Shown here piece after piece: positions 1,184 through 26,997 of a stretch of DNA of 64,000 bases. Source of the stretch: a virus; IMG/VR virus record IMGVR_UViG_3300025162_000016, positions 250,001 to 314,000 of that record; one strand, given 5' to 3'. The notes below the pieces were generated by a model, which was given only the letters and a program-made list of their open reading frames with translations, was not told where the DNA came from and did no database searches. How positions within the stretch are numbered: the first letter of the stretch is position 1; the number at the start of each line of letters is the position of its first letter. Position numbers and translations under genes: made by a program.

Positions 1184-1300
1184 ATTTTTTCTTCTTACGT
1201 GACATTAGTCTTAGATTTTACTAGGTACTACCACAATAAAGCTATTTTCGTCTGTGTGTTATTCACTTTGTCATGCATTATATCGATCTAATATAAAAAG

Positions 1301-1690: not shown

Positions 1691-1696
1691 AATATT

Positions 1697-2581
1697 TTAT
1701 CTGGAACCGATTTGAAAATTTAAATATGTTTTGTAACTCATTGCTGTTTTTTTACCAATTGCTTTATTTACTGCTTCACTAGGGACAAACTCATTTTGTC
1801 CCTCTCTGTTTACGTCTTCAATCATAGCAGAAATTATATCTCGCATACGTTCTATATTATGTCCTGGCAATTTATCGAGGATATGTTGGAGTCTTGTTGC
1901 TGTAACATATTCTTCGGCAATTTTTTCTGCATCTTCCAATACCTGCATTTTAGTTGGATCAACTACGGGGCGAGGAGTTTTTGTTTCACGGAAGTCATCT
2001 CCTTTGTGTTTAGCAACAATACGAGAACCGTTGTTTCGAGTTAATTCGATAATTGGTTTCAATACAACGCCTTCCCGTTTTTGGGGATTGACGAGTCTAT
2101 CTCCAAATTGTCCATATGGAACAATCGCCATTCCTGCCGGACAATTGATATCCGCTCCATCTGGTGCAATCATACTCACCCCATTCCGAATGGCTTGCAC
2201 TGATGGAGCATCCCGCTGTTCATCGAGAGTTTTCAAATCGGTGGAAACTTTAACGTAGTGAACAAAAGCTAAACCAAGGGTTTTTACAAAACTTTCTGCA
2301 TTTGGCACGTCTAACCACATATTGTCAATAATGACATCGAATGCGACAAATTTCATTTCCTTGCCATATGTTTTGCTCATGCCTTGGCATTTTCCACCAT
2401 ATACCTCCCCATAAACAGTAGCTTTACGTCCCGCCCCTATTCCTGCTTCGAGTAATTTGGATTTGATGGCATCTGCGTTAAATAATAATATGAATTTTTC
2501 ATGTTTCTCCCCGCCTGAGAAGAATGATAAATTAGTTCCATCCCAAGATAAGTGTGCGCTTGATCCGTGTATCTTTTCCAA
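1697..2581 (-). CDS. Rnl2-like RNA ligase with no conventional start for its N-terminus
   Basis: A 294-aa frame from a TTG at 2581. Motif I EKIHGSSAHL places the adenylated Lys at residue 3, followed by YGEVYGGKCQG (motif III), REGVVLKP (motif IV) and IVAKHKG (motif V). Rnl2-type ligases normally have about 34 residues before motif I. The same frame stays open upstream to about 2690 and encodes plausible ligase sequence (YRPEAQTIFLFKEVWALEKI) but contains no ATG, GTG or earlier TTG. The N-terminus therefore either starts at a non-standard codon or was displaced when the 90-bp repeat at 2671-2760 was inserted. Confidence 0.7.
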   Translation of the reverse strand: MEKIHGSSAHLSWDGTNLSFFSGGEKHEKFILLFNADAIKSKLLEAGIGAGRKATVYGEVYGGKCQGMSKTYGKEMKFVAFDVIIDNMWLDVPNAESFVKTLGLAFVHYVKVSTDLKTLDEQRDAPSVQAIRNGVSMIAPDGADINCPAGMAIVPYGQFGDRLVNPQKREGVVLKPIIELTRNNGSRIVAKHKGDDFRETKTPRPVVDPTKMQVLEDAEKIAEEYVTATRLQHILDKLPGHNIERMRDIISAMIEDVNREGQNEFVPSEAVNKAIGKKTAMSYKTYLNFQIGSR

Positions 2582-10162: not shown

Positions 10163-10602
10163 TAGGCGTGAATAAACCGTTTGATAAAGGTCTTCACACA
10201 AAAAACGATCCGAAATCTCGCCGATTGATTAAAGATTTTTTTGCTGAACGTGGATTGGTTTTAATAGACCATCCAAACAAATATGACATTGACTTAATAT
10301 CGGAAGACGGTATAATTCGAGTGGAAGTTGAACATCGTTTAAATTGGGTAAATGCAGTTTTTCCTTATGCAGAAATAAACGTGCCAGAGAGAAAGGCTAA
10401 ATTCTTTGCGAAAGGAAAAGCTCATTACTGTATTTTATCTAAAGAATATGAATATGTTGGATTTATATCTGCTGAAAAAATTCAGAAGTACATAAAACCT
10501 AGATTTCTAAAAGAATCCAGTAATCGATTTGTAAAAGAAAATGAATTTTTTTATAAAGTCCCAAAAGAAGAATTTGAATTTTATCAAGTAACAGTTGAAT
10601 AA
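10159..10602 (+). CDS. PD-(D/E)XK-like nuclease candidate
   Basis: 147 aa. YDIDLISEDGIIRVEVEHRLNW resembles a restriction-endonuclease-fold core (D...ExE), followed by FPYAEINVPERKAKFF. Substrate unknown. ATGA overlap with the upstream gene implies coupled translation. Its 3' end abuts a solo IS end. Fold assignment is by pattern only. Confidence 0.5.
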   Translation: MIGVNKPFDKGLHTKNDPKSRRLIKDFFAERGLVLIDHPNKYDIDLISEDGIIRVEVEHRLNWVNAVFPYAEINVPERKAKFFAKGKAHYCILSKEYEYVGFISAEKIQKYIKPRFLKESSNRFVKENEFFYKVPKEEFEFYQVTVE

Positions 10603-10722
10603 AACATCGAAAAAGTTAAAATATTTTTGTGGTTGACAAATTGAGGTAATTGGTGTAGGATATTAAGAATGGTCGGAATTCCTCCCCGAGGCTAAAGCCG
10701 TCGGGGTTTCCTTCCTCCAAAA
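10602..10722 (+). mobile_element. solo left end of TnpB1-type element, with outward promoter
   Basis: About 115 bp almost identical to 26816-26935, the upstream end of TnpB element 1, including the CAT that would be the tnpB-proximal start region. No tnpB follows. It contains TTGACA-N17-TAGGAT (-35 at about 10634) and then a hairpin CCCCGAGGCTAAAGCCGTCGGGG-like stem with the CTAAAG core. The promoter reads into the gene at 10725, so the residue supplies that gene's promoter and structured leader. Confidence 0.75.
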
Positions 10723-10724
10723 CA

Positions 10725-10943
10725 ATGAATGAACCTAAAGTAGAATATCAATTAGAGAAAGCGGTCACCGGTAAAGTGGAAAAAAAAGTGCCGGTTGTAT
10801 TAGAAGATAAAGAAGGCAATAAAATTCGAGCCCCATGGGCACCAAAAGCAAATTGTAAACGGTGTCTCGGACGAGGTTATATGGGGATGTCAACTATAAC
10901 AAACGTATTACTTCCTTGTCGTAAATGTTATCCTTGGCAATGA
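10725..10943 (+). CDS. small zinc-ribbon protein
   Basis: 72 aa. C-terminal CKRCLGRGYMG...LPCRKC has two CxxC pairs, the first in a DnaJ-like CxxCxGxG context, so it binds zinc. No further function. Transcribed from the IS-derived promoter. Confidence 0.6.
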   Translation: MNEPKVEYQLEKAVTGKVEKKVPVVLEDKEGNKIRAPWAPKANCKRCLGRGYMGMSTITNVLLPCRKCYPWQ

Positions 10944-10944
10944 T

Positions 10945-11280
10945 ATGACTAATAATGCCAAAGATTATCTTGTTGAAGGTCCACTATATCCTTCGTTCAT
11001 CCATCTGTGGAAAGACGATTTGTCTATGTTATCCGACGTTCCACTTGATTGGAAAGAGCGAGAAGTATTTCGGATTTTTGCATCGAAAATATATGAACGG
11101 TTAACTCAGCCGCAGGTTATTCAGAAATTTGTCAATGACGCATATGAAGATGGATATCAAGAGGGAAAAGAGAATGTGATAGAAGCCGTTATAATAGAGT
11201 TGACAAAACTGGAAACCGGTAAATCCGAGGATGCTGTGGAGATATTGGAGCAAGCGATAAACTCATTGCGAATTATATGA
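10945..11280 (+). CDS. small protein, unknown function
   Basis: 111 aa, acidic and helical, with no recognised motif. Starts 1 bp after the zinc-ribbon gene and overlaps the macro-domain gene by 4 bp (ATGA), so the three are co-transcribed. Confidence 0.55.
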   Translation: MTNNAKDYLVEGPLYPSFIHLWKDDLSMLSDVPLDWKEREVFRIFASKIYERLTQPQVIQKFVNDAYEDGYQEGKENVIEAVIIELTKLETGKSEDAVEILEQAINSLRII

Positions 11281-11792
11281 TATATTTTTTAGAAAACACA
11301 AATTTATTAACATGGTATGAAGAACAAACAAAGCCTTGTGGTATTGGGCATAGTTGCAACTGCTTTCATACATTCGGAAGTGGCATTGCTAAATCTATTA
11401 AAGACGCATATCCACAAGCATATGCCGCAGATTTAACAACTTTGCGGGCATCAAAAGATAAACTTGGAATTTTTTCTTGTGCAACAATTCAGACAGTCCC
11501 TCATAAGATAATTTATAATATCTATGGTCAATTTGATTTTGGGAGAGATAAGCGATATGATTTTGGGAGAGATAAGCGATATACCTCATATGATGCTTTA
11601 TTTGATGGCGTGTCAGCAATGCGAAGTCATGCTATTGAAAATGATATAGAGCTACTTGGATTGCCGCAAAATATCGGGTGTTATCGGGGCGGAGCAAATT
11701 GGAACATCGTGGAAGCGATTTTACGAGAGATTTTTGCGGCAGATAAAGCGTTATCGTTAGTAATATGTCATTATAATCCTTCGCCGATTTAA
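11277..11792 (+). CDS. macro-domain protein (ADP-ribose binding or hydrolysing)
   Basis: 171 aa. GHSCNCFHTFGSGIAKSIKD matches the macro-domain loop NCxGxxGxGIA, and LPQNIGCYRGGANWNIVEAI matches the second loop (IGxGxGG..W..V). Such domains bind ADP-ribose or remove it from targets. A 24-nt in-frame tandem duplication encodes DFGRDKRY twice (around 11534-11581), which lengthens a surface loop. Lies just upstream of the WGR-PARP gene. Confidence 0.75.
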   Translation: MIYFLENTNLLTWYEEQTKPCGIGHSCNCFHTFGSGIAKSIKDAYPQAYAADLTTLRASKDKLGIFSCATIQTVPHKIIYNIYGQFDFGRDKRYDFGRDKRYTSYDALFDGVSAMRSHAIENDIELLGLPQNIGCYRGGANWNIVEAILREIFAADKALSLVICHYNPSPI

Positions 11793-11794
11793 AT

Positions 11795-11989
11795 ATGAAA
11801 AAATTATTTGTAATATTATTCGGGATTATTGTTCTTATAAGTTTTCCCAGTTGTACAACCTATGTTGGTCCCGGTCCGGTTTATTGTCCTACTCCCGTCT
11901 ATTATTCTTCGCCAGTTTATTATCCTCCACCTGTTATTTTTTATGGGCCATATTGGCATTCGGATCATCGCTATTATTACCGGCGTTAA
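11795..11989 (+). CDS. small Tyr/Pro-rich lipoprotein
   Basis: 64 aa. MKKLFVILFGIIVLISFPSC is a lipoprotein signal with the lipobox Cys at residue 20. The mature part is Tyr, Pro and Val rich (repeats of PVYY). It would be membrane anchored and might affect superinfection or the host envelope (inference). Confidence 0.6.
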   Translation: MKKLFVILFGIIVLISFPSCTTYVGPGPVYCPTPVYYSSPVYYPPPVIFYGPYWHSDHRYYYRR

Positions 11990-12007
11990 AGTTTTTAAAA
12001 AAGGGAG

Positions 12008-12035
12008 TTGACTTTTTATACCGAACCGGTATACT
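12008..12035 (+). promoter_or_regulatory. promoter of the PARP gene
   Basis: TTGACT (12008-12013), 16-nt spacer, TATACT (12030-12035). The ATG at 12045 is 9 nt beyond the -10, leaving almost no leader. Confidence 0.75.
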
Positions 12036-12044
12036 CGTTTCAAT

Positions 12045-13316
12045 ATGGCAACTGTAATTAAAGAATTGCGATTAATCAACGTTGGGGTAGATGTGAACAT
12101 GAACCGCTGGTGGACGGGGCGAGTTTATGACAATGGGGACTTTGAAGCCGTGTGGGGACGGGTTGGTAATAGTGGGCAGAGTAAACTTTTCCCCGGTGGC
12201 GGAGAAACTAAACTGGAAGAGATGCGCCGGGACAAAATTAAGAAAGGTTATTCCGAACTGAAAACTGTTGGCGGTCCTGCTTCATCGGTTGTATCTGAAT
12301 CAAAACACATGGGCAATAGTGAACTTCGCCAAATCGCTAAAGCACAACTACTTAAAACCCAAAATCCCGTGCTGGATCGGTTGGTTGATCGGCTTATTCA
12401 AGCGAATGTTCATCGCATTACCACCTCTACTCAAATTCAGTTTAATTCTTCAACTGGATTGTTTAGTACTCCGCTCGGTATCGTTACTCCAGATGGCATT
12501 ACCGAAGCTCGTAATTTGCTGGTAACTTTAAATCATTGTGTTTCTCTCCGTGATTGGGCGTCTTATAAAATGTCGAGTGCGGTGAACCAGTATCTTCGCA
12601 TTGTTCCACAAAATGTGGGTATGAAACTGAGTGTCGAAGCTCTTTTTCCAGACGACGGAGCCATTCAAAAACAATCAAACATATTAGATTCCCTCGAATC
12701 TTCTTATCAAGCATTGCAGTCACAACCCGTCACTACCAATGCCACGGCAAAGTCAGTGGAGCAGGTATTCAAAGTGGATTTTGATGTGCTCAACGATCAG
12801 AAAGAGATTGATAGAATTGTACGGTGGTTTAATACGAGTAATAAGGCAATTCATGGATATTCGAATGTTAGGATCATGACTTTCCTAAAAATCAAAATTC
12901 ATGATAACTGGAACAGTTTTAATGAAAAAACTGGAAACATAAAGGAAATCTGGCATGGTAGCAGCGAAGCTAATTTGTTAAGTATTTTGAAAACGGGCCT
13001 AAAGGTAAGTCCTCCATCCACGACAACTCTCACCGGAAAAATGTTTGGTGAAGGTCACTATGGAGCGTTGGATAGTAGCAAATCCATGCAATATACATTT
13101 GGTAGGTTCAGTGGCCAGCATGGTAGTAGTGGATGGCTTTTTATTGCTGATTTTGCAATGGGGAATACATATTTTATCAATTCCTATGGCGGGAATAAAC
13201 CGGTCGGATACGATTCTATATGGGCAAAAGCGGCGAATACCGGACTGCGATTCGATGAACTGATTGTTCCGAGAGATAATCAAGTACGTCTCAAATATTT
13301 GATAGAAGTAAAATAG
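12045..13316 (+). CDS. WGR-domain poly(ADP-ribose) polymerase-like protein
   Basis: 423 aa. Residues about 5-75 form a WGR domain (NRWWTGRVY...AVWGRVGNSGQ). The C-terminal about 200 residues carry a PARP catalytic core: KEIWHGSSEANL (the HG NAD-binding motif), MFGEGHYGALDSSKSMQYT (the Y region) and FDELIVPRDNQVRLKYLIEV (the Glu of the H-Y-E triad). A helical linker separates them. It would transfer ADP-ribose from NAD to protein or nucleic acid. Its own leaderless promoter and the neighbouring macro domain and ADP-ribosylglycohydrolase suggest an ADP-ribose module. Confidence 0.8.
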   Translation: MATVIKELRLINVGVDVNMNRWWTGRVYDNGDFEAVWGRVGNSGQSKLFPGGGETKLEEMRRDKIKKGYSELKTVGGPASSVVSESKHMGNSELRQIAKAQLLKTQNPVLDRLVDRLIQANVHRITTSTQIQFNSSTGLFSTPLGIVTPDGITEARNLLVTLNHCVSLRDWASYKMSSAVNQYLRIVPQNVGMKLSVEALFPDDGAIQKQSNILDSLESSYQALQSQPVTTNATAKSVEQVFKVDFDVLNDQKEIDRIVRWFNTSNKAIHGYSNVRIMTFLKIKIHDNWNSFNEKTGNIKEIWHGSSEANLLSILKTGLKVSPPSTTTLTGKMFGEGHYGALDSSKSMQYTFGRFSGQHGSSGWLFIADFAMGNTYFINSYGGNKPVGYDSIWAKAANTGLRFDELIVPRDNQVRLKYLIEVK

Positions 13317-13331
13317 TTTATATTATATTAT

Positions 13332-13565
13332 ATGAAAAAAACAATTGGAGTCCTGCTAATTTTAGCAGGGATAGCGTTGGGTTTATATGTCGGATTATAT
13401 CTATGTTTTATTTGTGGAATTATAGATATCATCAAGGAAATTAGATCTTCAGATTTGAATGCCGTCAATGTGGCATGGGATATTGTTCGGATTATGTTTG
13501 CCAGCGTTGCAGGATGGATATGTGCATTCTTGTTCATTACTCCCGGCTACGCAATGGTAAAGTAA
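13332..13565 (+). CDS. small membrane protein, two TM segments
   Basis: 77 aa. TM1 about residues 4-30 (TIGVLLILAGIALGLYVGLY), TM2 about 48-72. No motif. Follows the PARP gene by 15 bp. Confidence 0.6.
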   Translation: MKKTIGVLLILAGIALGLYVGLYLCFICGIIDIIKEIRSSDLNAVNVAWDIVRIMFASVAGWICAFLFITPGYAMVK

Positions 13566-13577
13566 TAAAATATTCCC

Positions 13578-13605
13578 TTGACTTTTTATACCGAACCCGT
13601 ATAAT
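13578..13605 (+). promoter_or_regulatory. promoter upstream of the 13651 gene
   Basis: TTGACT (13578-13583), 16-nt spacer, TATAAT (13600-13605), nearly the same core as the PARP promoter. The leader to the ATG at 13651 is about 40 nt. Confidence 0.75.
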
Positions 13606-13650
13606 GCTGATGTAACGTAGAAAACAATAAAACAATAAAACAATAAATAT

Positions 13651-14280
13651 ATGTGCAATCCAAATACCCTATCGGTGACTTTGCAAACGGCGGTTCTTAT
13701 GCAGATTCAAGAATTCGTGAATAGTGGACAGATGTTCTCCCGCTACGACATTACGTTGGCAATTCGGCGGAAATGTAATGATGGTCTTCTGGAAATTCCA
13801 GCAGTAGAAAATACTAATCCCGGTGCCATTAATCGTTTTCCTATTCATAAGACCGCAGTGGATGATATTTTTGAACAATTATATCAAAACTGTCTTATCA
13901 ATGGACTTCCACCGTTGCGATATGATTTTGATCGAACTAAGGGATATCGATTATTCTCCGTAGATACTACTGCGCAAACAACTATTCCGGTTCCTGTTCC
14001 CATTAGCAATGTAACGCCAATGGATAATAAAGTTGTAAATGTGCCTTCTTTGGACTCAGTATCTTCTTCTACGGCATCTCCCGCTAATACCACGATGGTT
14101 ACTATGAGTGATGGCGAAATTCGTAGGCGAGTGGGTCTATATATGGATCGGTGTAGGAAAATTGGAGCAACTCCTACAATTAAACAGATCCAATCGGCAA
14201 TTAAACGTAAGAATAAAAGCACCGGTCTTTCATATCGGGAAATTACCAATATCACAACTTCCATGGGATATAAAGTTTAA
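13651..14280 (+). CDS. protein of unknown function with Ser/Thr-rich linker
   Basis: 209 aa. Two helical domains flank a low-complexity Pro/Ser/Thr/Val linker (about residues 110-155). N-terminal QIQEFVNSGQMFSRYDITLAI resembles a winged-helix DNA-binding domain (weak). Confidence 0.55.
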   Translation: MCNPNTLSVTLQTAVLMQIQEFVNSGQMFSRYDITLAIRRKCNDGLLEIPAVENTNPGAINRFPIHKTAVDDIFEQLYQNCLINGLPPLRYDFDRTKGYRLFSVDTTAQTTIPVPVPISNVTPMDNKVVNVPSLDSVSSSTASPANTTMVTMSDGEIRRRVGLYMDRCRKIGATPTIKQIQSAIKRKNKSTGLSYREITNITTSMGYKV

Positions 14281-14350
14281 TTTAGTTTTGTTTAATCGAG
14301 CTATTGAGAAGTGGGAGGGGCATTTTGCCGTCCCTTCTCTATTTATATTC

Positions 14351-15034
14351 ATGATTAATGATGGCGTTGTAAATATACCGGCAAAAGAAGAAAAGGCTAT
14401 TAATGCTTTTATAGAAAATATTTCTAATTTCTTTAATAAAAATAAATCTGCTTACATTGACAAGTGGGACATGGCTATTTGTTCTGTGATCAAGCAATAT
14501 GCCAATGAAATATCTCCGAAATATCACTTGGAAAAGATATTCTGGAGGTTTGTGTATGAGGTAGAAAATGTCAACAAGGCGGGATATATTCCGAAGCACA
14601 ATGAAATATTTGTCAATTTAGTATTTTGTGTTAAGAAGCCAAAAGAGAGATTAGGAGGTCAAGCGATTGATTTCAAAGCGGTTACTGTGTATATTTATCA
14701 CGAATGGGTTCATTACAAGCAAGATATTCTTGTTAAGAAGAAACATTCCAAGGGATTGGGTGGATTTTTTGACATGTATAATAAGACTGCTTACCACGAT
14801 ATTAAATGGGAGCAGATGGCATTAGCCCGTCAAGAGATTGAGTGGATAAAGCAGCGGATACGGAAGGTAACGCCGGAAGAAGTGATGAAGTGGTTACGAG
14901 AGTGGGGATTGAAGAGTGATCCTGCGTTAATTAGGCTTAAAAACACGAATCCGATGGCATATAAAAGAATTCTGAAATATGCCGTTATGTTCATTTTGAA
15001 GAAACAAGCTAAAGCTGTTACTAAAACACGATAG
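14351..15034 (+). CDS. putative HExxH metallopeptidase
   Basis: 227 aa from the ATG at 14351 (a longer frame would overlap the upstream gene). VYIYHEWVHYKQD contains HExxH with a following WEQMALARQE as possible third ligand, as in phage SprT-like or minimal zinc peptidases. Substrate unknown. A C-terminal basic helix is present. Overlaps convergently with the 15021 minus-strand gene. Confidence 0.5.
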   Translation: MINDGVVNIPAKEEKAINAFIENISNFFNKNKSAYIDKWDMAICSVIKQYANEISPKYHLEKIFWRFVYEVENVNKAGYIPKHNEIFVNLVFCVKKPKERLGGQAIDFKAVTVYIYHEWVHYKQDILVKKKHSKGLGGFFDMYNKTAYHDIKWEQMALARQEIEWIKQRIRKVTPEEVMKWLREWGLKSDPALIRLKNTNPMAYKRILKYAVMFILKKQAKAVTKTR

Positions 15035-15344
15035 TATATTCATCTCCATTCATTTCGTCATCCGGCCATTTTATTTTAATTCTCTGAACTATTTCAGGGG
15101 GGAAATATTTCATATTTAAAATATTCATCATGTCATTATAAGTAATATCGATATGACGATTTAAAGCTAGATTGGAGGTGAACCAAGTAATACGATAAGG
15201 TAATTCTCCCGGTTTGGCATTGGCAGATGCAATTCCAATAAAAGTAGTAGAATTTCCATTCTTTTTCATTTCAATCGGAAATTTCTTTCCAAACGATGCT
15301 TCCAAGAGGATTTCGAGTAGTATATTTTTCAAAGTTAATTGCAT
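15021..15344 (-). CDS. small protein with capsid-targeting-like N-terminus
   Basis: 107 aa. Starts MQLTLKNILLEILLEASFGKK; the amphipathic leader and LLE/A site resemble the capsid-targeting sequences cleaved by T4-type prohead protease, seen in other genes here. Rest unrecognised. Confidence 0.5.
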   Translation of the reverse strand: MQLTLKNILLEILLEASFGKKFPIEMKKNGNSTTFIGIASANAKPGELPYRITWFTSNLALNRHIDITYNDMMNILNMKYFPPEIVQRIKIKWPDDEMNGDEYTIVF

Positions 15345-15418
15345 TGTATATAAATAGGTTTTTTAGAAAGAAAACCTTGACTTTTTCCTTAAAACTGATA
15401 GATTACACTAAATTGAAT

Positions 15419-15976
15419 ATGGAATATTCTTGTATAACTCGTGACACCGATGCTCTTATTGGAGAGTCATTTTCTGATTATTCTCCTCCTTCGTGGGACG
15501 TGTATTTTTTGCGATTATCATATGAAGTCGCAACAAAATCCCGTGATCCTTCGACGAAATTCGGGGCAGTTGTGGTAAAAGATAAACGTCCTATATTATT
15601 TGGGTATAATGGATTGCCCTCAAATGTGAAAGATTTGCCGGAACGATTGGCAAGACCGGCTAAATATAAATGGACAATTCATTCGGAAGCCAATGCTCTT
15701 ATTTGTGGAGCAAAATTTGGAATATCAACTAATAAAGCGACATTATATATAGCTGGAATGCCATGTGCGGGATGTGCGACTATGATTGTAGCCGCAGGTA
15801 TTAGCAAAGTAGTTATTCATCGCCCCACTGCATTAATTTTTTCATTGGTAAGTCCATATGGAGAAGACGATGTAATTACGACCACCATGTTCGATGAGGC
15901 CGGAATAGAGGTGGTGTTTGTGGAAGAACCGGTTAATAAGATTGCCTATTTGGGTGGAAAGAAATATAATGTATAA
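15419..15976 (+). CDS. dCMP deaminase-like cytidine deaminase
   Basis: 185 aa from the ATG at 15419, which follows TTGACT-N16-TAGATT; a longer frame from 15296 would overlap the promoter. Zinc and catalytic motifs TIHSEANAL (HxE) and MPCAGCATMI (PCxxC) are clear, with DPSTKFGAVVV upstream. It converts dCMP to dUMP for thymidylate supply, fitting the DHFR and ThyX in the same window. Confidence 0.85.
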   Translation: MEYSCITRDTDALIGESFSDYSPPSWDVYFLRLSYEVATKSRDPSTKFGAVVVKDKRPILFGYNGLPSNVKDLPERLARPAKYKWTIHSEANALICGAKFGISTNKATLYIAGMPCAGCATMIVAAGISKVVIHRPTALIFSLVSPYGEDDVITTTMFDEAGIEVVFVEEPVNKIAYLGGKKYNV

Positions 15977-15978
15977 TT

Positions 15979-16089
15979 ATGATTAAATTGTTGGAATTAT
16001 TGTTATTTTTAGGTTTTGTGAGTATGCTTGCATGGGGACTGATGTTTGTAATTGAACGAGAAGTGAACGATCCGGACGATAAAGAATAA
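15979..16089 (+). CDS. 36-aa membrane peptide
   Basis: ATG 15979 to TAA 16087-16089. One hydrophobic segment (LLELLLFLGFVSMLAWGLM) and an acidic C-terminus. It fills the gap between the deaminase and the ADP-ribosylglycohydrolase (2 bp each side). Confidence 0.5.
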   Translation: MIKLLELLLFLGFVSMLAWGLMFVIEREVNDPDDKE

Positions 16090-16090
16090 T

Positions 16091-16939
16091 ATGCTAGGAG
16101 CTATAATTGGTGATATTGCGGGAGCACCCTATGAGGGTGATAAATTAAGTCAAGATAAACGAGACTATCGTCCTTTCTTTTTGAATGGATTAGCTAAATT
16201 TACTGATGATACTAATCTGACAATTGCGGTAGCGGATTCATTATTGACAGGGGTTCCTTTCCATGAAAAATTTTTGGAATGGTATAATAAAAATCCTAAT
16301 CTTGGATATGGATCTTCGTTTAAAGAGTGGGCCGCAACCGGAGGTACCATGCAAAATGATAGTCGTGGTGATGGGGCTGCAATGCGAGTAAGCCCGATTG
16401 CTTTATTTGCATTGAATTTAGAACTATTGGGGGTGGATGGTAAGCCTATTGAGTTGTCTTTTGAGGATAGGTTAGCATGGGCGTATGAACAGGCAGTAGA
16501 GAGTACTAAAATGACTCATAATTGCGATGAATCTCGCAATGGGGCGTTGGCAGTTACTACAGCAGCGATGTTAGCGGCGAAAAAATATACGAAAGCGGAA
16601 ATTAAAGATAACATTGTAAAACTTACTGGTTATGATTTATCTGCCTCGGTAGAAACTGTTAGGGAAACATGGACAAAGCGAGATATTAGATGTGATATTA
16701 CGGTACCTCAGGCATTGATTTGTTTTTTAGAATCTACTAGTTTTGAAGATACTATTCGTTTATCTGTTTATTCCAAAGGAGATGTAGATACCATTGCTGC
16801 CATTGCGGGAGGGATTGCCGAACATTTTTATGGAATAGATAGCATTAATACCGGCATCCTCGTCGAAACTAAATTACGATTACAGCCCGAAATGATTGAT
16901 ATTATAAATAAATGTTATGGAAATACTCTTAAATGGTAA
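16091..16939 (+). CDS. ADP-ribosylglycohydrolase (ARH/DraG family)
   Basis: 282 aa, full family length. MLGAIIGDIAGAPYEG at the N-terminus, LAKFTDDTNLTIAVADS (metal-binding TDDT) and C-terminal YSKGDVDTIAAIAGGIAEHFYG (the second D..DT metal site) define the family. It removes ADP-ribose from proteins or nucleic acid, so it may reverse the phage PARP or host/defence ADP-ribosylation. Followed by a terminator. Confidence 0.85.
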   Translation: MLGAIIGDIAGAPYEGDKLSQDKRDYRPFFLNGLAKFTDDTNLTIAVADSLLTGVPFHEKFLEWYNKNPNLGYGSSFKEWAATGGTMQNDSRGDGAAMRVSPIALFALNLELLGVDGKPIELSFEDRLAWAYEQAVESTKMTHNCDESRNGALAVTTAAMLAAKKYTKAEIKDNIVKLTGYDLSASVETVRETWTKRDIRCDITVPQALICFLESTSFEDTIRLSVYSKGDVDTIAAIAGGIAEHFYGIDSINTGILVETKLRLQPEMIDIINKCYGNTLKW

Positions 16940-16964
16940 TAAGCCGGAATCACGCTGGCTTATT
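16938..16964 (+). terminator. terminator after the ADP-ribosylglycohydrolase
   Basis: Stem AATAAGCC/GGCTTATT with an 11-nt loop overlapping the stop codon; a short T-rich tail follows. Confidence 0.6.
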
Positions 16965-17048
16965 TACCGACGAAAGGTTTGGATTAAAAATACTATTATC
17001 GTTCCGACGATCGGGATTATAACATATTGGTTTTCATCCTGAAAAAAC

Positions 17049-17636
17049 ATGAAAAAACATTCTAATCCTTATGAAGTTTTAGGAGTGCCTCCAACTTCGA
17101 CTGTGGAAGAAGTGTCCGCTGCTTATAAAAAATTAGTTAAAACTCATCATCCAGATCTTCATCAAGATGCCGCTAAGAAAAAAGAGTCAGAGGAAACGAT
17201 GAAGAAAATAAATGTGGCTTACGATGAAATAACTAATCCTAAGCAACATTCTCGGGGAGGTTCTCCGTTTAATGATGACAACCTTAATGAAATGTTCGGC
17301 GATTTGTTTGGGAACAGACAAGGTGGAAGAAATCCATTTCATGATTTTTTTGGAAGAGGCGGTAATACATTTCATTTTTCATCCACTCAAACAATTTGCT
17401 GTGAATTGCCTCTCTCTATAACCAAGGCGGTTTTAGGCGGGGAAGTTGAATATGAGTCTCCGGTAGGTAAACTTAAATTTAATTTACCGCCTGCAACCCA
17501 GCCGGGGTTTGTATTCAACCTTCAAGTAAATAAAGATAGTAATTCTACAATAATTCTACAAATTCACGTTAAGGTTATTATTCCTTCTAATTTAACGGAT
17601 GAACAGAAGAAAAAATTAGAGGAATTAGGAATTTAA
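17049..17636 (+). CDS. DnaJ-like co-chaperone, short form
   Basis: 195 aa. J domain at residues about 5-70 with the HPD tripeptide (KTHHPDLHQ), then a Gly/Phe-rich linker (GGRNPFHDFFGRGG), and one short C-terminal substrate-binding domain. The zinc-finger domain of full DnaJ is absent. It would recruit host DnaK, for example for virion assembly or replication. In an operon with Pth2 and Nudix. Confidence 0.8.
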   Translation: MKKHSNPYEVLGVPPTSTVEEVSAAYKKLVKTHHPDLHQDAAKKKESEETMKKINVAYDEITNPKQHSRGGSPFNDDNLNEMFGDLFGNRQGGRNPFHDFFGRGGNTFHFSSTQTICCELPLSITKAVLGGEVEYESPVGKLKFNLPPATQPGFVFNLQVNKDSNSTIILQIHVKVIIPSNLTDEQKKKLEELGI

Positions 17637-17639
17637 TTT

Positions 17640-18044
17640 GTGGATAGAATAAAACAAATTATTATCATTCGACGGGATTTAAAAAATGTTGATGGGCAAA
17701 AAGTTAGAAGTGGAAAAATTATTGCGCAAGCGTGTCATGCGAGCATTGCGTTTTTAACTAATTTTATTAGAAAAAATCCCGAATCAAACATCGGCCAAAA
17801 ACTATCGTCTGTACAAAAAGAATGGATTGATGGTTCATTTTTTAAAATTTGTTTAGCAGTGGATAGCGAAAAAGAATTGCTTGACATTTTAGAAAAATCT
17901 CGTAATATTGGATTAGATGCTCATTTGATCACGGATAAGGGACACACTGAATTTGGTGGAATATCAACTAATACTTGTTTAGCATTGGGTCCGGATTATA
18001 GTAGCCGACTTGATCCTATTACCGGGCATTTAAAATTGTTTTAA
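17640..18044 (+). CDS. peptidyl-tRNA hydrolase, Pth2 type
   Basis: 134 aa from a GTG three bases after the dnaJ stop. KQIIIIRRDLK...RSGKIIAQACHAS matches the Pth2 N-terminal strand and K..AQ.xHA motif, and ITDKGHTEFGGISTNTCLALGP the conserved TD.G.T....T..A.GP region. It releases peptides from stalled peptidyl-tRNA. Pth2 is mostly archaeal and eukaryotic but also known in large phages. Confidence 0.8.
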   Translation: MDRIKQIIIIRRDLKNVDGQKVRSGKIIAQACHASIAFLTNFIRKNPESNIGQKLSSVQKEWIDGSFFKICLAVDSEKELLDILEKSRNIGLDAHLITDKGHTEFGGISTNTCLALGPDYSSRLDPITGHLKLF

Positions 18045-18048
18045 AATT

Positions 18049-18483
18049 ATGAAAAAATATACTGGTCCAAAAGTTCTACCTACCGTAGATATTGCTGCAA
18101 TCAATTTGGAAGACGATATGCTTGTACTAGTTCGTAGACCGAATGAACCCTTGTGGCGGTTTCCCGGTGGATTTGCTGACGTCAATTGTGAATCCTATGA
18201 GAATGATGCTCTACGGGAACTTAAAGAGGAAACAAATATTTATGGTAATAATATAGAATATATTGGATCTACTTGTATAGATGACCCTCGCTACAAAAAA
18301 AGCAAAGATAAAATTAAAACAATGTTCTTTGCTGTTACTAAATGGAACGGGGAATTCAATGCGGCAGATGACTTAAAAGGAGGCGAAATCAAACTTCTGG
18401 ATGCTCATACTGTTACACCGGAAATGCTTATGCCCGAGCATAGAGTGCTGTTGACTATGTTATTGAATTGGTTACAATGGTGA
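18049..18483 (+). CDS. Nudix hydrolase
   Basis: 144 aa. The Nudix box starts at GGFADVNCES and ends RELKEETNIYG, giving GX5EX7REUXEE. Preceded by RRPNEPLWRFPGGF. It hydrolyses a nucleoside diphosphate derivative; ADP-ribose or NAD-type substrates are plausible because NAD-salvage genes follow. Confidence 0.8.
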   Translation: MKKYTGPKVLPTVDIAAINLEDDMLVLVRRPNEPLWRFPGGFADVNCESYENDALRELKEETNIYGNNIEYIGSTCIDDPRYKKSKDKIKTMFFAVTKWNGEFNAADDLKGGEIKLLDAHTVTPEMLMPEHRVLLTMLLNWLQW

Positions 18484-18621
18484 TTAAATTATCAAAGTAG
18501 ATTATCGACTTAAAGTGCCAACGGGCGATATTCTTATTGTAAATGGAGATAAATGAAAACCTGAAATGCTATTCTTTCGGGAACACTGCCATTAGTTAAT
18601 TACGAAAAAATATAAAATAAA

Positions 18622-19398
18622 ATGAAAAATACTCACCTATTTGTTATTGATCCTCAGAATGATTTCACTGAAGAGAACGGAGCATTATATGTTCCCGGTG
18701 CCAATCCGGATATGACTAGATTGTCTTCATTTATTAGGAAAAATTTAAATAGATTCGGAGAAATTCATTGTTCCCTTGACAGTCATCAAAGTGTTCATAT
18801 CGCTCATCCTATTTTTTGGTTGAATTTAAAAAATGAACATCCTGCACCATTTACAATCATTACACGAGAAGATGTTCAAAGTGGAACATGGAAGCCTTTT
18901 CATAGTGATTTACAAGAATATGTTCAACGATACATGGACGTTGTGCAAATCATAACAATTTGGCCTCCTCATTGTATAATTGGAAGTTGGGGACATATGA
19001 TTTCATCTCTCGTTTCAAACGCTTTTATCGAATGGGAAATCACTCAACTAAGTAAAGTTAATTATATAATGAAAGGGATGAATTATCTTACCGAACAATA
19101 TAGTGCGGTTAAAGCCGTCGTTGAAAATTCCGAAGATATATCTACTCATCTAAATACCCAATTAATTGAAATTCTCTCAACTGCTGATGAGATTTTAATT
19201 GCGGGAGAAGCATTAAGTCATTGTGTTAATTATACGGTTGTGGACATTGCTGATAATATCGGGGAAGAGAATATTAAAAAACTTGTATTATTAACCGATG
19301 TTTCGTCAAACGTGTTGGGATGTGAGAAAATGGGACAGGAGTTTGTTGAAAAGATGGTGACTCGTGGAATGCGTCTTTCAAATACAATTGAATGGTAG
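18622..19398 (+). CDS. pncA: nicotinamidase (isochorismatase family)
   Basis: 258 aa. FVIDPQNDFTEENGAL holds the catalytic Asp, CSLDSHQSVH the metal-binding DxHxxxH, IWPPHCIIGSWGH the typical WPxHC.xG region, and AGEALSHCVNYTVVDI the Cys nucleophile. It converts nicotinamide to nicotinate, the first step of Preiss-Handler NAD salvage. The next two steps visible in this window (PncB and NadE) lie downstream. The gap 18484-18621 holds no evident feature. Confidence 0.8.
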   Translation: MKNTHLFVIDPQNDFTEENGALYVPGANPDMTRLSSFIRKNLNRFGEIHCSLDSHQSVHIAHPIFWLNLKNEHPAPFTIITREDVQSGTWKPFHSDLQEYVQRYMDVVQIITIWPPHCIIGSWGHMISSLVSNAFIEWEITQLSKVNYIMKGMNYLTEQYSAVKAVVENSEDISTHLNTQLIEILSTADEILIAGEALSHCVNYTVVDIADNIGEENIKKLVLLTDVSSNVLGCEKMGQEFVEKMVTRGMRLSNTIEW

Positions 19399-19417
19399 AT
19401 AATATGCGTTTCTAAAA

Positions 19418-19666
19418 ATGAAATTATGTCCGATAAAATTGCGGGGATTACATGTTTCCAAATCTTTAGTAGAAAAAAAAGCAATTCCTTTAAATATAAG
19501 TTTTTTACAGTGGATGTTGTACCGAGAGCCATCTAAAGAAGCCGCAGTGTGGCGATTCCCTCAAACGAGATTAAAAACTCTAGATATACAAACGATGCCT
19601 TGTTTGATTAATTGGAAATTGCCACGAAAGTCATTAATGATGAGATTGTCAAGAAGTGTACTATGA
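19418..19666 (+). CDS. uncertain small ORF
   Basis: 82 aa, basic, no motif. It overlaps the next start by 4 bp (ATGA), which favours a real gene. However, other frames in the same stretch also look partly coding, so a frameshifted gene is possible. Confidence 0.3.
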   Translation: MKLCPIKLRGLHVSKSLVEKKAIPLNISFLQWMLYREPSKEAAVWRFPQTRLKTLDIQTMPCLINWKLPRKSLMMRLSRSVL

Positions 19667-19866
19667 AAGTTATAAAAAAGGGAAAAATTTCTAAGCCAAA
19701 ATATGAATATATTGCGGAATGTTCAAATTGTGGATATACCGCATTGTGTTCGGGAGCAGAAGTAACTTTTGTTGAAGATAGAGGACAAGATTATCCAACC
19801 GTCATGTGTCCTACATTGGGATGTCAACACGTTATATGGTGTCATGCACATCCAAGAACAAAGTGA
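19663..19866 (+). CDS. small zinc-binding protein
   Basis: 67 aa from the ATG at 19663. AECSNCGYTALC and VMCPTLGCQHVIWCHAH provide CxxC and C/H ligands. Start chosen by the ATGA overlap upstream; the GTGA overlap downstream shows it is one of a coupled series. Confidence 0.55.
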   Translation: MKVIKKGKISKPKYEYIAECSNCGYTALCSGAEVTFVEDRGQDYPTVMCPTLGCQHVIWCHAHPRTK

Positions 19867-20138
19867 GAAGTCTGTGTTGTTTTGATTGTGGAGGTGAACC
19901 GTGGGGACACGGCGAAGATTTCTATGTTAGAAATTCATTGTGGTTGTTAGTGATTCCTAGTAGAAAACGTACGGGAATAATTTGTTTAGATTGTTTTGAA
20001 AAACGATTAGGAAGACGGCTTATCAGAAAAGATTTTCAAATATGGTTTAGGGAGAATCGCTGGTTTGGCGACAACCGGCGTAAAATAAACCATCCTATTT
20101 CATTGAAATTGTCTCAGAGAATCAAAAAACGGGCTTGA
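19863..20138 (+). CDS. small zinc-binding protein, basic C-terminus
   Basis: 91 aa from the GTG at 19863, overlapping the previous stop (GTGA). LCCFDCGG and GIICLDCFEKR form two CxxC pairs; the C-terminus is Arg/Lys rich. Possibly nucleic-acid binding. Confidence 0.5.
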   Translation: MRSLCCFDCGGEPWGHGEDFYVRNSLWLLVIPSRKRTGIICLDCFEKRLGRRLIRKDFQIWFRENRWFGDNRRKINHPISLKLSQRIKKRA

Positions 20139-20162
20139 CTTTTCGCCCAAAATCATTATCAT
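20135..20162 (+). promoter_or_regulatory. promoter of the pncB-nadE unit
   Basis: TTGACT (20135-20140), 16-nt spacer, TATCAT (20157-20162). The ATG at 20161 lies inside this -10, so translation should begin at the in-frame ATG at 20170, 7 nt after the -10. Confidence 0.65.
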
Positions 20163-20169
20163 GCCAATA

Positions 20170-21339
20170 ATGAAATTTGATGAACCAATTATAACCTCAA
20201 TACTGGATACCGATTGTTATAAGTTTTTTATGGGACAACTAGTGTTCCATGATTTACCAGTAGCGATGGTTGAGTATTCATTCATAAATCGTGGCGATAC
20301 TTCATTTCCCAAAGAGTTTGACAAAGTATTGAATTGGCAGATAGAGCAGATGGCAACGTTGAAATTAACGGATGATGAAGCTAATTTTCTTAATACTATT
20401 CCCGGCATTCGTCCTACCTATGTGGAATGGTTTAAAAATTACCGATATGATCCCGGCGAGGTTGTTGTTCAACAAAATGAAGGTAAACTTTCTATTTCTA
20501 TAAAGGGATCGTGGTATCGAACCATTTTTTGGGAAATTCCATTGATGGCATTAGTTTCGGAACTCTTCTTCAAAATGACCGGTCAGACGCCGGATATTGA
20601 AACTGATTCACGTCTTACTAAAAAAACTGAAAATCTTTCAAACGCTAGATGTCAATGGTCTGATTTTGGAACCCGGCGACGGTTTTCGTATGACACCCAA
20701 GATTGTGTAGTAAACCACATGAAATTTTTCAAGGGTTTCATTGGCACCAGCAATGTTCATTTAGCTATGAAACATGAAATCCGACCGATTGGTACGTCTG
20801 CTCATGAAATGGTAATGGGATTATCGGCTCTCTATGGTTCTAAAATGGCAAATAAAATGTGGATGAAACATTGGAGTGATCATTTCGGTGGACTTAATGG
20901 TATTGCCCTCACAGATACTTTCACTACCGAAGTGTTCCTTCGGGATTGGGATAATTATTTCGCTCGCTTATTTGATGGGGTCCGGCAGGATAGTGGCGAT
21001 CCATTTGCGTGGGGTAAAAAAATGTTGACTCATTATACCAAACTCGGGATAGATGCGACGTCGAAAAAATTCGTGTTCAGTGATGGATTGAACGATGAAG
21101 TGTTTATTCGATTAACAAAACATTTCAGAGGATGGGCTCAGGTTATCGGAGGCATAGGAACTTTTCTCACGAATGACTGTGGAAAACATATAACTCCACT
21201 GAATATGGTAATTAAAATGACCACTGCTGATTTCGGATATGGTCCGGTGGATGTGGTTAAACTTTCAGATGTTATGAATAAACATACGGGTAAGTTAGAC
21301 GCCATAGAATTAACAAAGAAAGAATTGAAAGCACTGTAA
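20170..21339 (+). CDS. pncB: nicotinate phosphoribosyltransferase
   Basis: 389 aa. LDTDCYKFFMGQLVF, VEYSFINRGD, SDFGTRRRFSYDTQ, GTSNVHLAMKHEIRPIGTSAHEMVM and DGVRQDSGDPFAWGKKM are the conserved NAPRTase blocks, including the His phosphorylated in the mechanism (GTSAHE). It makes nicotinate mononucleotide from nicotinate and PRPP. Followed 6 bp later by NAD synthetase. The NaMN adenylyltransferase (NadD) step is not present in the window. Confidence 0.9.
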   Translation: MKFDEPIITSILDTDCYKFFMGQLVFHDLPVAMVEYSFINRGDTSFPKEFDKVLNWQIEQMATLKLTDDEANFLNTIPGIRPTYVEWFKNYRYDPGEVVVQQNEGKLSISIKGSWYRTIFWEIPLMALVSELFFKMTGQTPDIETDSRLTKKTENLSNARCQWSDFGTRRRFSYDTQDCVVNHMKFFKGFIGTSNVHLAMKHEIRPIGTSAHEMVMGLSALYGSKMANKMWMKHWSDHFGGLNGIALTDTFTTEVFLRDWDNYFARLFDGVRQDSGDPFAWGKKMLTHYTKLGIDATSKKFVFSDGLNDEVFIRLTKHFRGWAQVIGGIGTFLTNDCGKHITPLNMVIKMTTADFGYGPVDVVKLSDVMNKHTGKLDAIELTKKELKAL

Positions 21340-21345
21340 AAAAAT

Positions 21346-22134
21346 ATGAAAAATTTAGCAGTTGAGATATCTATTTGGTTAGAAAAATACGCAATTAAAA
21401 ATAATCGTGCGGCATGGGTAGTTGGGGTATCTGGGGGAGTAGATAGTGCTCTTGTATCTACCTTATGTGCGTTAACGGGAATGCCGACGCATTGTGTAAT
21501 AATGCCTTGTCAATCTAGACCCGATAGTATGGAGCTTGCAAGAAGCCATGTAGATTGGCTTACAAAAAAATATGGTGAAGAGGTTGTTACATATCATAAG
21601 TTTGATTTAACCAATACCTTTGAACAATTTGCAACTGCATGTGCTGGTAAGTATGATAATGATTTAGCATACGCTAACACTAAAAGCCGTCTTCGTATGA
21701 TTGTTCTTTATCAGATTGCTACCTGTTGTGATGGATTAGTAGTTGGAACCGGCAATAAAGTAGAAGATTTTGGGATCGGATTCTTTACAAAATATGGAGA
21801 TGGGGGGGTTGACATTAGTCCAATTGCTGATATAATGAAAAGTGAAGTTCGTCAAATGTGTCGTGCATTAAAAGTTCTACCTGAACTATGCGAAGCAATT
21901 CCTACCGATGGATTGTGGGCAGATAATAGAACAGACGAAATTGCAATTGGCGCAAGTTATGATGAATTAGAATGGGCGATGACATTTTCGGAGAGAGGGG
22001 GCGGTTCGGATATTGTGAGAGAACGGTTAACAGAGCGACAAAAAGAAGTTTTAAAAATTTATGATAAGTGGCATAATGCGGGAGCCCACAAAATGGTTCC
22101 TATTCCCACTTTTAAACGGATACTGAAATATTAA
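21346..22134 (+). CDS. nadE: ammonia-dependent NAD synthetase
   Basis: 262 aa, the length of the NH3-dependent form without a glutaminase domain. AWVVGVSGGVDSALVS is the ATP-pyrophosphatase P-loop (SGGVDS), VVGTGNKVEDFGIGFFTKYGDG the conserved GTxNxxE..G...YGDG motif, and AIPTDGLWADNRTDE the PT.GLW..QTDE-like region. It converts nicotinate adenine dinucleotide to NAD. Directly coupled to pncB. Confidence 0.9.
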   Translation: MKNLAVEISIWLEKYAIKNNRAAWVVGVSGGVDSALVSTLCALTGMPTHCVIMPCQSRPDSMELARSHVDWLTKKYGEEVVTYHKFDLTNTFEQFATACAGKYDNDLAYANTKSRLRMIVLYQIATCCDGLVVGTGNKVEDFGIGFFTKYGDGGVDISPIADIMKSEVRQMCRALKVLPELCEAIPTDGLWADNRTDEIAIGASYDELEWAMTFSERGGGSDIVRERLTERQKEVLKIYDKWHNAGAHKMVPIPTFKRILKY

Positions 22135-22145
22135 AAAAAAATAAC

Positions 22146-22298
22146 ATGAAATATACTAGAGTAATAACATTTGAATTCGATGATATCGAAGATGCGGAAG
22201 CTTTTACCGATTTTTTACGAGATGCTAGCGACGAGAATAATATGCAAATTGTGAAAATTGAAAACCCAAGTGAGAAACTTGTTGACAAAAAGAAATAA
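22146..22298 (+). CDS. 50-aa protein, unknown function
   Basis: ATG 22146 to TAA 22296-22298. Acidic (FEFDDIEDAEAFTDFLRD). Lies 11 bp after nadE and 2 bp before the next gene. Confidence 0.5.
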   Translation: MKYTRVITFEFDDIEDAEAFTDFLRDASDENNMQIVKIENPSEKLVDKKK

Positions 22299-22300
22299 AT

Positions 22301-22585
22301 ATGCTATTTTCAGGTGAAATAATTGGCGCAGATTCTTCTAATAAAGAACTCACCGTTCGCTGTGATGATGATATTAATGGAATCATTATTGGGGAACGAG
22401 TGATTATTGAAGAGCTACTTGACCGCCGTGTAATAAACCGAAAACGATTATATGAATTATACATGTATCAAATAAACGAAATATCTGAAAAGTGCGATTG
22501 GAAGAGCGTTTTCAGTCCCAAAGAAATTGTAGATATAATTTGTAATATCGTAGAAAATCATCCGGAATTATTTGATCGTGCATAA
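22301..22585 (+). CDS. small acidic protein, unknown function
   Basis: 94 aa, no recognised motif; N-terminal beta-rich part and C-terminal helices. Overlaps the following gene by about 8-14 bp. Confidence 0.55.
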   Translation: MLFSGEIIGADSSNKELTVRCDDDINGIIIGERVIIEELLDRRVINRKRLYELYMYQINEISEKCDWKSVFSPKEIVDIICNIVENHPELFDRA

Positions 22586-23234
22586 TGAGGTAATTTTCGG
22601 AATTTGTGGTACCGCTGGAAGGAAACAAGATGCAGAACGTCTTTCTCGCAATCACTTTGATGCTATGTGTGAATGCGTTCGAGTATTACTTAAACAATTC
22701 AACGAGGGTGGATATGATGTGACAACACTTGCGGCGGGGGGTGCGGCGTTTGCTGACCACTCCGCCGTTACTTTATATTTAAATAAAGAAGTTCCGAAAC
22801 TTAAACTTTTTTTCCCCTGTCAATTTCTTGGGGTTGATGAGGGATTTGATACTACTCCTTCAAGTGATAATGAGCGAGCCAAAGGATATTCCACCGGAGA
22901 TATCGCTAATAGACTTCATGCTCGTTTCTCACGTAAGTTGGGAGTTAATTCTTTGAGTGAACTATCCATCGCAATTCAACAAGGGGCAGAGGTTCACGTT
23001 GCTAAAGGATTTTGGGCAAGAAATGCTTTAGTAGCTCAATCGGATATACTTCTAGCAATGACGTTTGGGGATCGTGAATGGGTTAAGCCCGGCAGTGGAA
23101 CTGCTCACTGTGTAATGACTTATTTAAACAGAGTAAAGAAACATGGTTTCTTTGATAAAAGCTTCCACTATAATTTACAAGACGGGGAAATTTACATGGG
23201 GTGTAAAGCAAAAACTGATCCGAGTAGCCCATAG
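22572..23234 (+). CDS. SLOG-like nucleotide-binding protein
   Basis: 220 aa from a TTG at 22572 (a GTG at 22578 is an alternative). FGICGTAGRKQDAERLS, TLAAGGAAFADHSAVTLYL and SDILLAMTFGDREWVKPGSGTAHCV have the G-rich loop and spacing of Rossmann-like SLOG domains (YpsA/DprA/LOG superfamily), which bind nucleotides or NAD/ADP-ribose-related ligands. Its place after the NAD-salvage genes makes a nucleotide-sensing or processing role attractive. Assignment by pattern only. Confidence 0.5.
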   Translation: MIVHNEVIFGICGTAGRKQDAERLSRNHFDAMCECVRVLLKQFNEGGYDVTTLAAGGAAFADHSAVTLYLNKEVPKLKLFFPCQFLGVDEGFDTTPSSDNERAKGYSTGDIANRLHARFSRKLGVNSLSELSIAIQQGAEVHVAKGFWARNALVAQSDILLAMTFGDREWVKPGSGTAHCVMTYLNRVKKHGFFDKSFHYNLQDGEIYMGCKAKTDPSSP

Positions 23235-25290: not shown

Positions 25291-25647
25291 ATGCAATCTG
25301 AAAAAGGTGATAGCTATTGGACTCTTAAAAGTGAAATACTTACTCTAGAAGATTTTGAACTTCCGGATGGCAGATATATTGGTGCTACTATTGAGTTTAG
25401 TGGCATTTGGGAAGATGACGCATTTGATTATGAATATGGTAGTATCTGTGGCACTCATCGTGAAGATCCCTATTTTACCATAGAGAAGTGGTGGGTGACA
25501 GGTGTTTGGGATATGGCAACAAAAACCGCTATTCCAATGGATGATGTCATTCAAATCGCAATAGATAAAGAAATGGATATTATTGCCAATTCAGTTGCGA
25601 CTGAAGTCGAATTTCCCGAGCCGGATTGTCAACAACCCCTACCCTAA
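25291..25647 (+). CDS. protein truncated or extended by an IS end
   Basis: 118 aa, acidic, no recognised domain. The last residues ...DCQQPLP and the TAA are supplied by the right end of TnpB element 1, whose hairpin CCCCTACCCTAAAGGG contains the stop. The native C-terminus has therefore been replaced. Confidence 0.55.
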   Translation: MQSEKGDSYWTLKSEILTLEDFELPDGRYIGATIEFSGIWEDDAFDYEYGSICGTHREDPYFTIEKWWVTGVWDMATKTAIPMDDVIQIAIDKEMDIIANSVATEVEFPEPDCQQPLP

Positions 25648-26936: not shown

Positions 26937-26997
26937 TATGAAATCTCCCGATTTTGGTTGGTCGTTGATATTTATACGACGGAGGAATCCGGCGATG

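Follow-up and report, generated by a model that had tools for sequence, protein, structure and literature searches.

A probable NAD turnover block in a jumbo phage, with nicotinamide salvage genes beside a PARP and its putative reversers

Introduction

Can a phage rebuild nicotinamide adenine dinucleotide (NAD) from nicotinamide while also spending NAD on ADP-ribosylation? This question is raised by a 64,000-nucleotide stretch of viral DNA (the window), which spans bases 250,001–314,000 of the IMG/VR record IMGVR_UViG_3300025162_000016, a 368,758-bp jumbo phage. Nearly all substantial open reading frames (ORFs) in a 12 kb block of the window, positions 11,277–23,234, lie on the + strand. The block encodes a macro-domain protein, a poly(ADP-ribose) polymerase (PARP) with a WGR domain, an ADP-ribosylglycohydrolase (ARH), a Nudix protein, a nicotinamidase (PncA), a nicotinate phosphoribosyltransferase (NAPRTase; PncB), an NAD synthetase (NadE) and a YpsA/LOG-like SLOG protein (Table 1). 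Of the four enzymes needed to make NAD again from nicotinamide, three are encoded here. We propose that the block is probably a phage NAD turnover module, in which nicotinamide recycling would feed, and may be coupled to, reversible ADP-ribosylation.

An earlier reading of the letters alone (the sequence-only reading) had placed these eight genes within 12 kb and had pointed to the grouping of Preiss-Handler salvage enzymes with a PARP and its putative reversers. Coordinates, profiles, motifs and structural models bear out both points, and all eight frames are open on the + strand where that reading had put them. Profile searches of the whole record gave one match each for macro, PARP, ARH, PncB and NadE, all inside the block. 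By our own estimate, which takes no account of how often phage genes group by function, the chance that five single-copy genes fall within 12 of 369 kb is ~1e-5 to 1e-6.

Table 1. Predicted genes of the block, in window coordinates
Feature	Size	Coordinates	Strand	Evidence
Macro-domain protein	171 aa	11277..11792	+	phrog_335, DarG profile, model
PARP, PARP2-like (WGR, regulatory and catalytic domains)	423 aa	12045..13316	+	PF00644, H-Y-E triad
Unknown protein	209 aa	13651..14280	+	Also after PARP in the 365-kb relative, 27% identity
dCMP/cytidine-deaminase-like protein		15296..15976	+	PF00383 E=6e-18; 44% identity in the 365-kb relative (L054)
ADP-ribosylglycohydrolase (ARH/DraG superfamily)	282 aa	16091..16939	+	PF03747 E=1e-33
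Stand-alone Nudix protein	144 aa	18049..18483	+	PF00293 E=2.5e-12
Nicotinamidase (PncA/Pnc1-like)	258 aa	18622..19398	+	Pnc1 alignment
Nicotinate phosphoribosyltransferase (PncB)	392 aa	20161..21339	+	TIGR01514
NAD synthetase (NadE), ammonia-dependent type	262 aa	21346..22134	+	TIGR00552
SLOG (YpsA/LOG-like) protein	220 aa	22572..23234	+	Structural model

The block encodes three salvage enzymes

PncB scored 389.8 bits against the NAPRTase equivalog TIGR01514, 120 bits over the cut-off of 269.55. Its nearest solved structures are all NAPRTases, and the histidine of the GTxAHE motif is kept. The nicotinamide enzyme NadV was considered for this gene and rejected, as the match to phrog_448, the phage family of nicotinamide phosphoribosyltransferases, was far weaker than that to TIGR01514; since PncB is the only NAPRTase-family gene in the record, no NadV of the NARP2/KVP40 type was found. 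The nadE gene begins 6 bp after pncB. Its product scored 160.7 bits against TIGR00552 (cut-off 63.65) and keeps the SGGxDS, GTxNxxE, FFTKYGDGG and TDE motifs and a C-terminal HK, most of which are also present in Escherichia coli NadE. It is predicted to be an NAD synthetase that would act on nicotinic acid adenine dinucleotide (NaAD) or perhaps on nicotinic acid mononucleotide (NaMN). Alignment of the nicotinamidase with yeast Pnc1 showed that the metal and catalytic motifs (DxQNDF, DxHxxxxH, WPxHC, K and C) are kept. Profile matches to this protein were weak, both in Pfam and with NF008623 (E=2e-9, far below the curated cut-off).

The fourth step, adenylation of NaMN, had been described as missing from the block. 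The Nudix protein bears on this point, as it is 42% identical to the C-terminal half of a NadM-like protein (L054:2502-3392) in a 365-kb phage, IMGVR_UViG_3300038424_000251 (L054). The Nudix counterparts in L054 and in the 462-kb phage LR756500 (L008) are ~300 aa long, with an adenylyltransferase and a Nudix half, and their N-terminal halves resemble nicotinamide mononucleotide (NMN) adenylyltransferases, at E 2e-7 and 1.5e-8 respectively, although both scores stay well short of the curated cut-offs. The window protein has no N-terminal adenylyltransferase half and is not a NadM, in which an NMN adenylyltransferase is joined to a Nudix domain; a PTH2 gene ends 4 bp upstream of it. Because only the C-terminal half is present and PTH2 lies 4 bp before it, loss of the adenylyltransferase half is the simplest history.

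The sole PF01467 match in the record (200,508–200,849) was rejected as a NadD, being HldE-like and inside a nucleotide-sugar cluster. PF01467 missed the N-terminal half of the L054 protein; therefore, dedicated profiles of phage NadM N-termini and NadDs were searched against ~159 kb, comprising the window, 83 kb of flanks and 12 kb at the sugar cluster. Nothing fell below E 0.05 in this portion, which is under half of the record, and its best NadD-profile match was the ThyX gene. The remaining record was scanned for adenylyltransferases by PF01467 alone, a profile blind to the L054 NadM-like protein. As far as PF01467 over the whole record and dedicated profiles over ~159 kb reach, the step is indeed missing. 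As the NadM-type enzyme of the phage is reduced to its Nudix portion, the host NadD probably carries out this step.

The sugar-nucleotide cluster itself (L002; G000:C1 197000-207000) contains transketolase-like halves, an epimerase, a GHMP kinase, an aminotransferase, glycosyltransferases (named by eye) and the HldE-like transferase.

A PARP2-like enzyme and its candidate reversers

The catalytic domain of the PARP was recognized by PF00644 at E=2e-23, with the WGR domain at 21.3 bits against a Pfam cut-off of 22 and the regulatory domain also slightly under its cut-off. PARP2 is the best solved relative, and the match spans the WGR, regulatory and catalytic regions. Residues H304, Y339 and E405 are invariant in an alignment of four phage PARPs. 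They form a triad of the H-Y-E (ARTD) type, and poly- or mono-ADP-ribosyl transfer is predicted for this protein.

The ARH retains the TDDT and GDxDT metal motifs in alignment. The macro protein has no Pfam match; it was recognized by phrog_335 (E=5e-36) and by a DarG profile (E=7e-5), and a structural model of modest quality (mean predicted local distance difference test score, pLDDT, 62) gave TARG1 and DarG as best matches. It also aligns to 5e3b ('Macrodomain protein', E=5e-4), which we take to be Streptomyces SCO6735. In the alignment, the position of TARG1 Asp125 is occupied by Gly, and the position of Lys84 is not confidently alignable. The TARG1 hydrolase requires the Lys84/Asp125 dyad, and SCO6735, which is without this dyad, uses a glutamine (PMC9411070). 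A glutamine of the window protein aligns in the glutamine region of SCO6735, which offers a tentative lead. The sequence-only reading had spoken of reversers of the PARP and had named loss of catalytic residues among the findings that would overturn its proposal. The PARP, ARH, nicotinamidase, PncB and NadE all keep their motifs, and the ARH remains a candidate reverser; the macro protein is uncertain in this role because the TARG1 aspartate is absent. Within the macro gene, TRF detected a 24-bp tandem duplication (11,534–11,582) that is perfect and in frame; it encodes an 8-residue repeat and suggests a recent change.

Macro and PARP genes also neighbour each other elsewhere. In a phage PARP clade of 54 linked sequences (L176:9471-9962, L148, L198, L202 and others), a macro gene often abuts the PARP gene, with gaps of about -18 to +11 bp in the listed members. 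The one macro protein tested, from L176, matches human TARG1 (C6orf130) with E=5e-26. The TARG1–PARP pair resembles a toxin–antitoxin layout. Macro–PARP adjacency as a general rule was rejected, since it was seen in one large PARP clade and the window only (2/24 clusters at 60% identity).

No profile matched the SLOG-like protein. For its structural model (pLDDT 69), Foldseek by itself returned nothing at E<=0.001; in a second alignment, Bacillus subtilis YpsA was the best match (Z 11.5, 157 residues aligned), ahead of the LOG, DprA and Moco-carrier folds. The model thus points to a SLOG superfamily fold, with a putative role in NAD or nucleotide processing. SLOG homologues lie near pncB in two other phage lineages (L055 and L056).

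Salvage genes are linked in many phages

Single-protein scans of IMG/VR returned only IMGVR_UViG_3300009502_000028, a second contig that carries the block at 100% identity and may belong to the same virus population as the source record. More distant relatives were found by alignment queries. A PncB-like search of IMG/VR confirmed 195 stretches, of which 80 were kept; together with other fetched records, 96 loci with PncB were obtained, representing 73 lineages at 80% identity. Flanks reached up to 10 kb per side, and the sample is biased to relatives of the query and contains a few redundant fetches. PncA and NadE were each found near PncB in 47 of the 73 lineages (both in 36), NadD-like genes in 22 and NadM/Nudix-like genes in nine, Nudix-only matches being counted among the latter. 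All 63 PncB–NadE pairs share a strand. These data suggest that the deamidated route (PncA–PncB–NadE, with or without NadD or NadM) is a common phage cassette.

The nearest relative found was L054, in which PncA (51% identity), PncB (58%) and PARP (45%) lie within ~13 kb together with the NadM-like gene, and a glutamine-dependent NadE gene lies ~6 kb before this group. The PARP is 3.4 kb from PncB, and the gene order differs from that of the window. In LR756500, PARP, NadM-like, PncB and ARH genes fall within ~20 kb. In Xanthomonas phage XacN1 and in phage CM1, a PARP and a HIGH+Nudix frame share the genome with a NAPRTase-family gene, and Sinorhizobium phage Phosso has an annotated Preiss-Handler set including the adenylyltransferase. 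No DNA-level relative was found among named phages.

Two further arrangements were noted. In a 394-kb phage (L226), a NadE gene, a nicotinamidase-like gene and a gene for a nucleotidyltransferase with additional C-terminal sequence stand back to back; names are by eye, save NadE and the PF01467 match. This trio is a compact salvage cassette. At 156–159 kb of the 365-kb relative (L214/L223), a two-domain, glutamine-dependent-looking NAD synthetase is followed 1.3 kb on by a CoaD-like adenylyltransferase, which scores slightly under its curated cut-off.

Proposed NAD turnover and alternative readings

In the proposed module, nicotinamide set free as the phage PARP or host NADases consume NAD would be converted to nicotinate by the phage nicotinamidase. 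PncB would join nicotinate with phosphoribosyl pyrophosphate (PRPP) to give NaMN, the essential host NadD would turn NaMN into NaAD, and the phage NadE would amidate NaAD to NAD. Meanwhile, the PARP2-like WGR-PARP would ADP-ribosylate protein or nucleic-acid targets, and the ARH, perhaps also the macro protein, would strip the ADP-ribose tags. The Nudix protein would probably degrade free ADP-ribose or related dinucleotides. Nicotinamide is a product inhibitor of PARPs, so the nicotinamidase would lift this inhibition and keep the PARP active. The salvage core, PncA–PncB–(NadD)–NadE, rests on the known biochemistry of the pathway and on strong linkage, with its substrates and flux predicted from them. 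A coupling of the PARP to salvage is suggested more weakly, by the joint presence of PARP, nicotinamidase and PncB in the 365-kb relative at 45–58% identity despite reordering. A counter-defence role of the salvage set is plausible by analogy.

A fuller version can be drawn, in which a DNA-break-sensing PARP stands within a near-closed NAD/ADP-ribose cycle: PncA would clear the inhibitor, PncB and NadE would rebuild NAD via the host NadD, ARH and macro protein would recycle the tags, and the Nudix half of the former NadM would clear or sense ADP-ribose. We put this forward tentatively and regard it as doubtful in its entirety.

Several observations weigh against the module as proposed. PARP genes were found near PncB in 5/73 lineages and ARH genes in 3/73, which makes the tie to the PARP much looser than that among PncA, PncB and NadE. 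No PRPP synthetase (Pribosyltran_N) match was found in the record, and PRPP would thus need a host source; the record itself may be incomplete. Ranked by E-value, the solved NadE closest to that of the window is 3fiu, presumably the Francisella enzyme. Francisella NadE serves as an NMN synthetase (PMC3376133), so amidation of NaMN may come before adenylation here. Finally, cyanophage relatives of the window NadE (48% identity) are located in sugar-nucleotide clusters; that of Synechococcus phage S-SSM7 (L015) lies within a nucleotide-sugar/glycosyltransferase cluster, and no NAPRTase match was found in the S-SSM7 genome. The NadE family may therefore have other amide-forming roles.

The linkage data also bear on another explanation, plain metabolic supply, whereby salvage would raise NAD for replication or nucleotide synthesis with no special tie to the PARP or to immunity. 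Most phage PncA–PncB–NadE loci have no PARP nearby, and the wider stretch encodes a dihydrofolate reductase, an ATP-dependent-type DNA ligase and the dCMP-deaminase-like protein, with ThyX further on. However, the ligase, having an ATP-type domain, needs no NAD, and in distant huge phages PncB is again accompanied by PARP and ARH. We consider this explanation unlikely.

The PARP could instead act as an effector on DNA or proteins of the host or of rival phages; ARH and macro protein would then be its immunity, and the salvage genes mere neighbours. WGR domains bind DNA breaks, as established for PARP1–3, and the toxin–antitoxin-like abutment of a TARG1-like macro gene and PARP in one clade fits such a role. 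Set against this, the closest relative keeps the PARP 3.4 kb from PncB, and neither ARH nor macro was found in the fetched L054 locus, which leaves the effector explanation distinctly improbable. A chance grouping of genes that a gene-rich jumbo phage acquired independently agrees with the varied gene order among relatives and the unrelated DnaJ and PTH2 genes interspersed here. It is already disfavoured by repeated linkage, as single-copy families lie within 12 kb of the 369-kb record and are grouped again in other phages at 30–58% protein identity, and we give it very little credence.

The deamidated cassette, if active, predicts that phages would resist defences which deplete NAD and release nicotinamide, that phages such as this one would depend on the host NadD, and that phage salvage would be tied, in a testable way, to phage ADP-ribosylation.

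Other genes in and near the block

The deaminase-like gene is also found near the salvage genes in the 365-kb relative, and its membership in the module is uncertain. A 308-aa ORF without family match (14108–15034) contains an HEWVH (HExxH) zinc-peptidase-like motif; translation probably begins within the listed frame. The count of promoter-like sites in the sequence equalled the shuffled expectation and was uninformative.

On the minus strand 9 kb before the block (window 98–2581), a gene for a cyclic-phosphate processing receiver (cREC) lies between two RNA-ligase-like genes; this unit may serve RNA repair, with ADP-ribose chemistry perhaps shared. Three TnpB/IS605 OrfB-like genes with Cas12f1-like domains are present at 25644–26819, 28174–29325 and 45791–46987 (minus strand). 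A ~100–126 bp repeat occurs at 10601–10726, 26813–26937 and 29391–29490 in copies 85–97% identical. Two copies adjoin TnpB gene starts, and one stands alone directly before the block; the repeat is a possible IS605 end or guide-RNA remnant.

Comparison with known systems

Phage-encoded NAD rebuilding is shared with the Vibrio phage KVP40 type (NadV with NadM or NadR) and with NARP1 and NARP2. NadV/NadM keep to the amidated nicotinamide route, whereas the window set would deamidate nicotinamide first and re-amidate through NadE. Adps, the Prs-like, ADP-ribose-phosphorylating enzyme of NARP1, carries a Pribosyltran_N domain, of which no match was found in the record. NARP1 is described as using ADP-ribose (PMC12774641). 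Phage NAD rebuilding has been proposed or reported to counter NAD depletion (PMC9503650, PMC11984713). The near-closed cycle, if true, would add to NARP1 and NARP2 a third way for phages to rebuild NAD, one linked to ADP-ribosylation by the phage itself.

The phage NAD-synthesis enzymes in a 2022 survey of viral NAD metabolism are NadV, NadM and NadR, and the terms nicotinamidase and NAD synthetase are absent from it (PMC9503650); a 2021 jumbo-phage survey likewise lists NadV, NadM and NadR (PMC7824862), and NARP1 and NARP2 are the cited rebuilding pathways (PMC11984713). Phage PARPs, macro domains, ARH, SLOG and Nudix proteins have already been surveyed (PMC9503650, PMC7824862, PMC4245714). 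A targeted search of open-access literature found no paper on a deamidated phage cassette with a PARP.

The closest parallels are in giant phages. In Bacillus phage G, the deamidated route is annotated as complete within 6 kb (gp275 isochorismatase, gp277 nicotinate phosphoribosyltransferase, and gp281 and gp283, annotated as NaMN adenylyltransferase and NAD synthetase), with Nudix and KptA genes close by and an ARH elsewhere in the genome. Unlike the window phage, phage G encodes a NadD that passes the TIGR00482 cut-off (142 bits), and its PARP-type match is weak, below cut-off and distant from the salvage cluster. LR756500 (462 kb) and LR756511 (595 kb) share PARP, ARH, macro, PncA, PncB and NadE, spread over roughly 60–100 kb and not 12 kb; LR756500 retains the NadM-like fusion, and LR756511 has a PRPP synthetase. 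IMGVR_UViG_3300038424_000251 shares NadM-like/Nudix, PncA, PncB and PARP genes within ~13 kb at 42–58% identity, and differs in its full-length NadM-like protein, glutamine-dependent NadE and changed gene order. The combination had been proposed as a distinct strategy of a phage; that it is peculiar to one phage is not supported, as phage G, Phosso, LR756500, LR756511 and the 365-kb relative share its logic. The kit occurs in several variants in other giant phages and is an under-described phage strategy, not a unique one.

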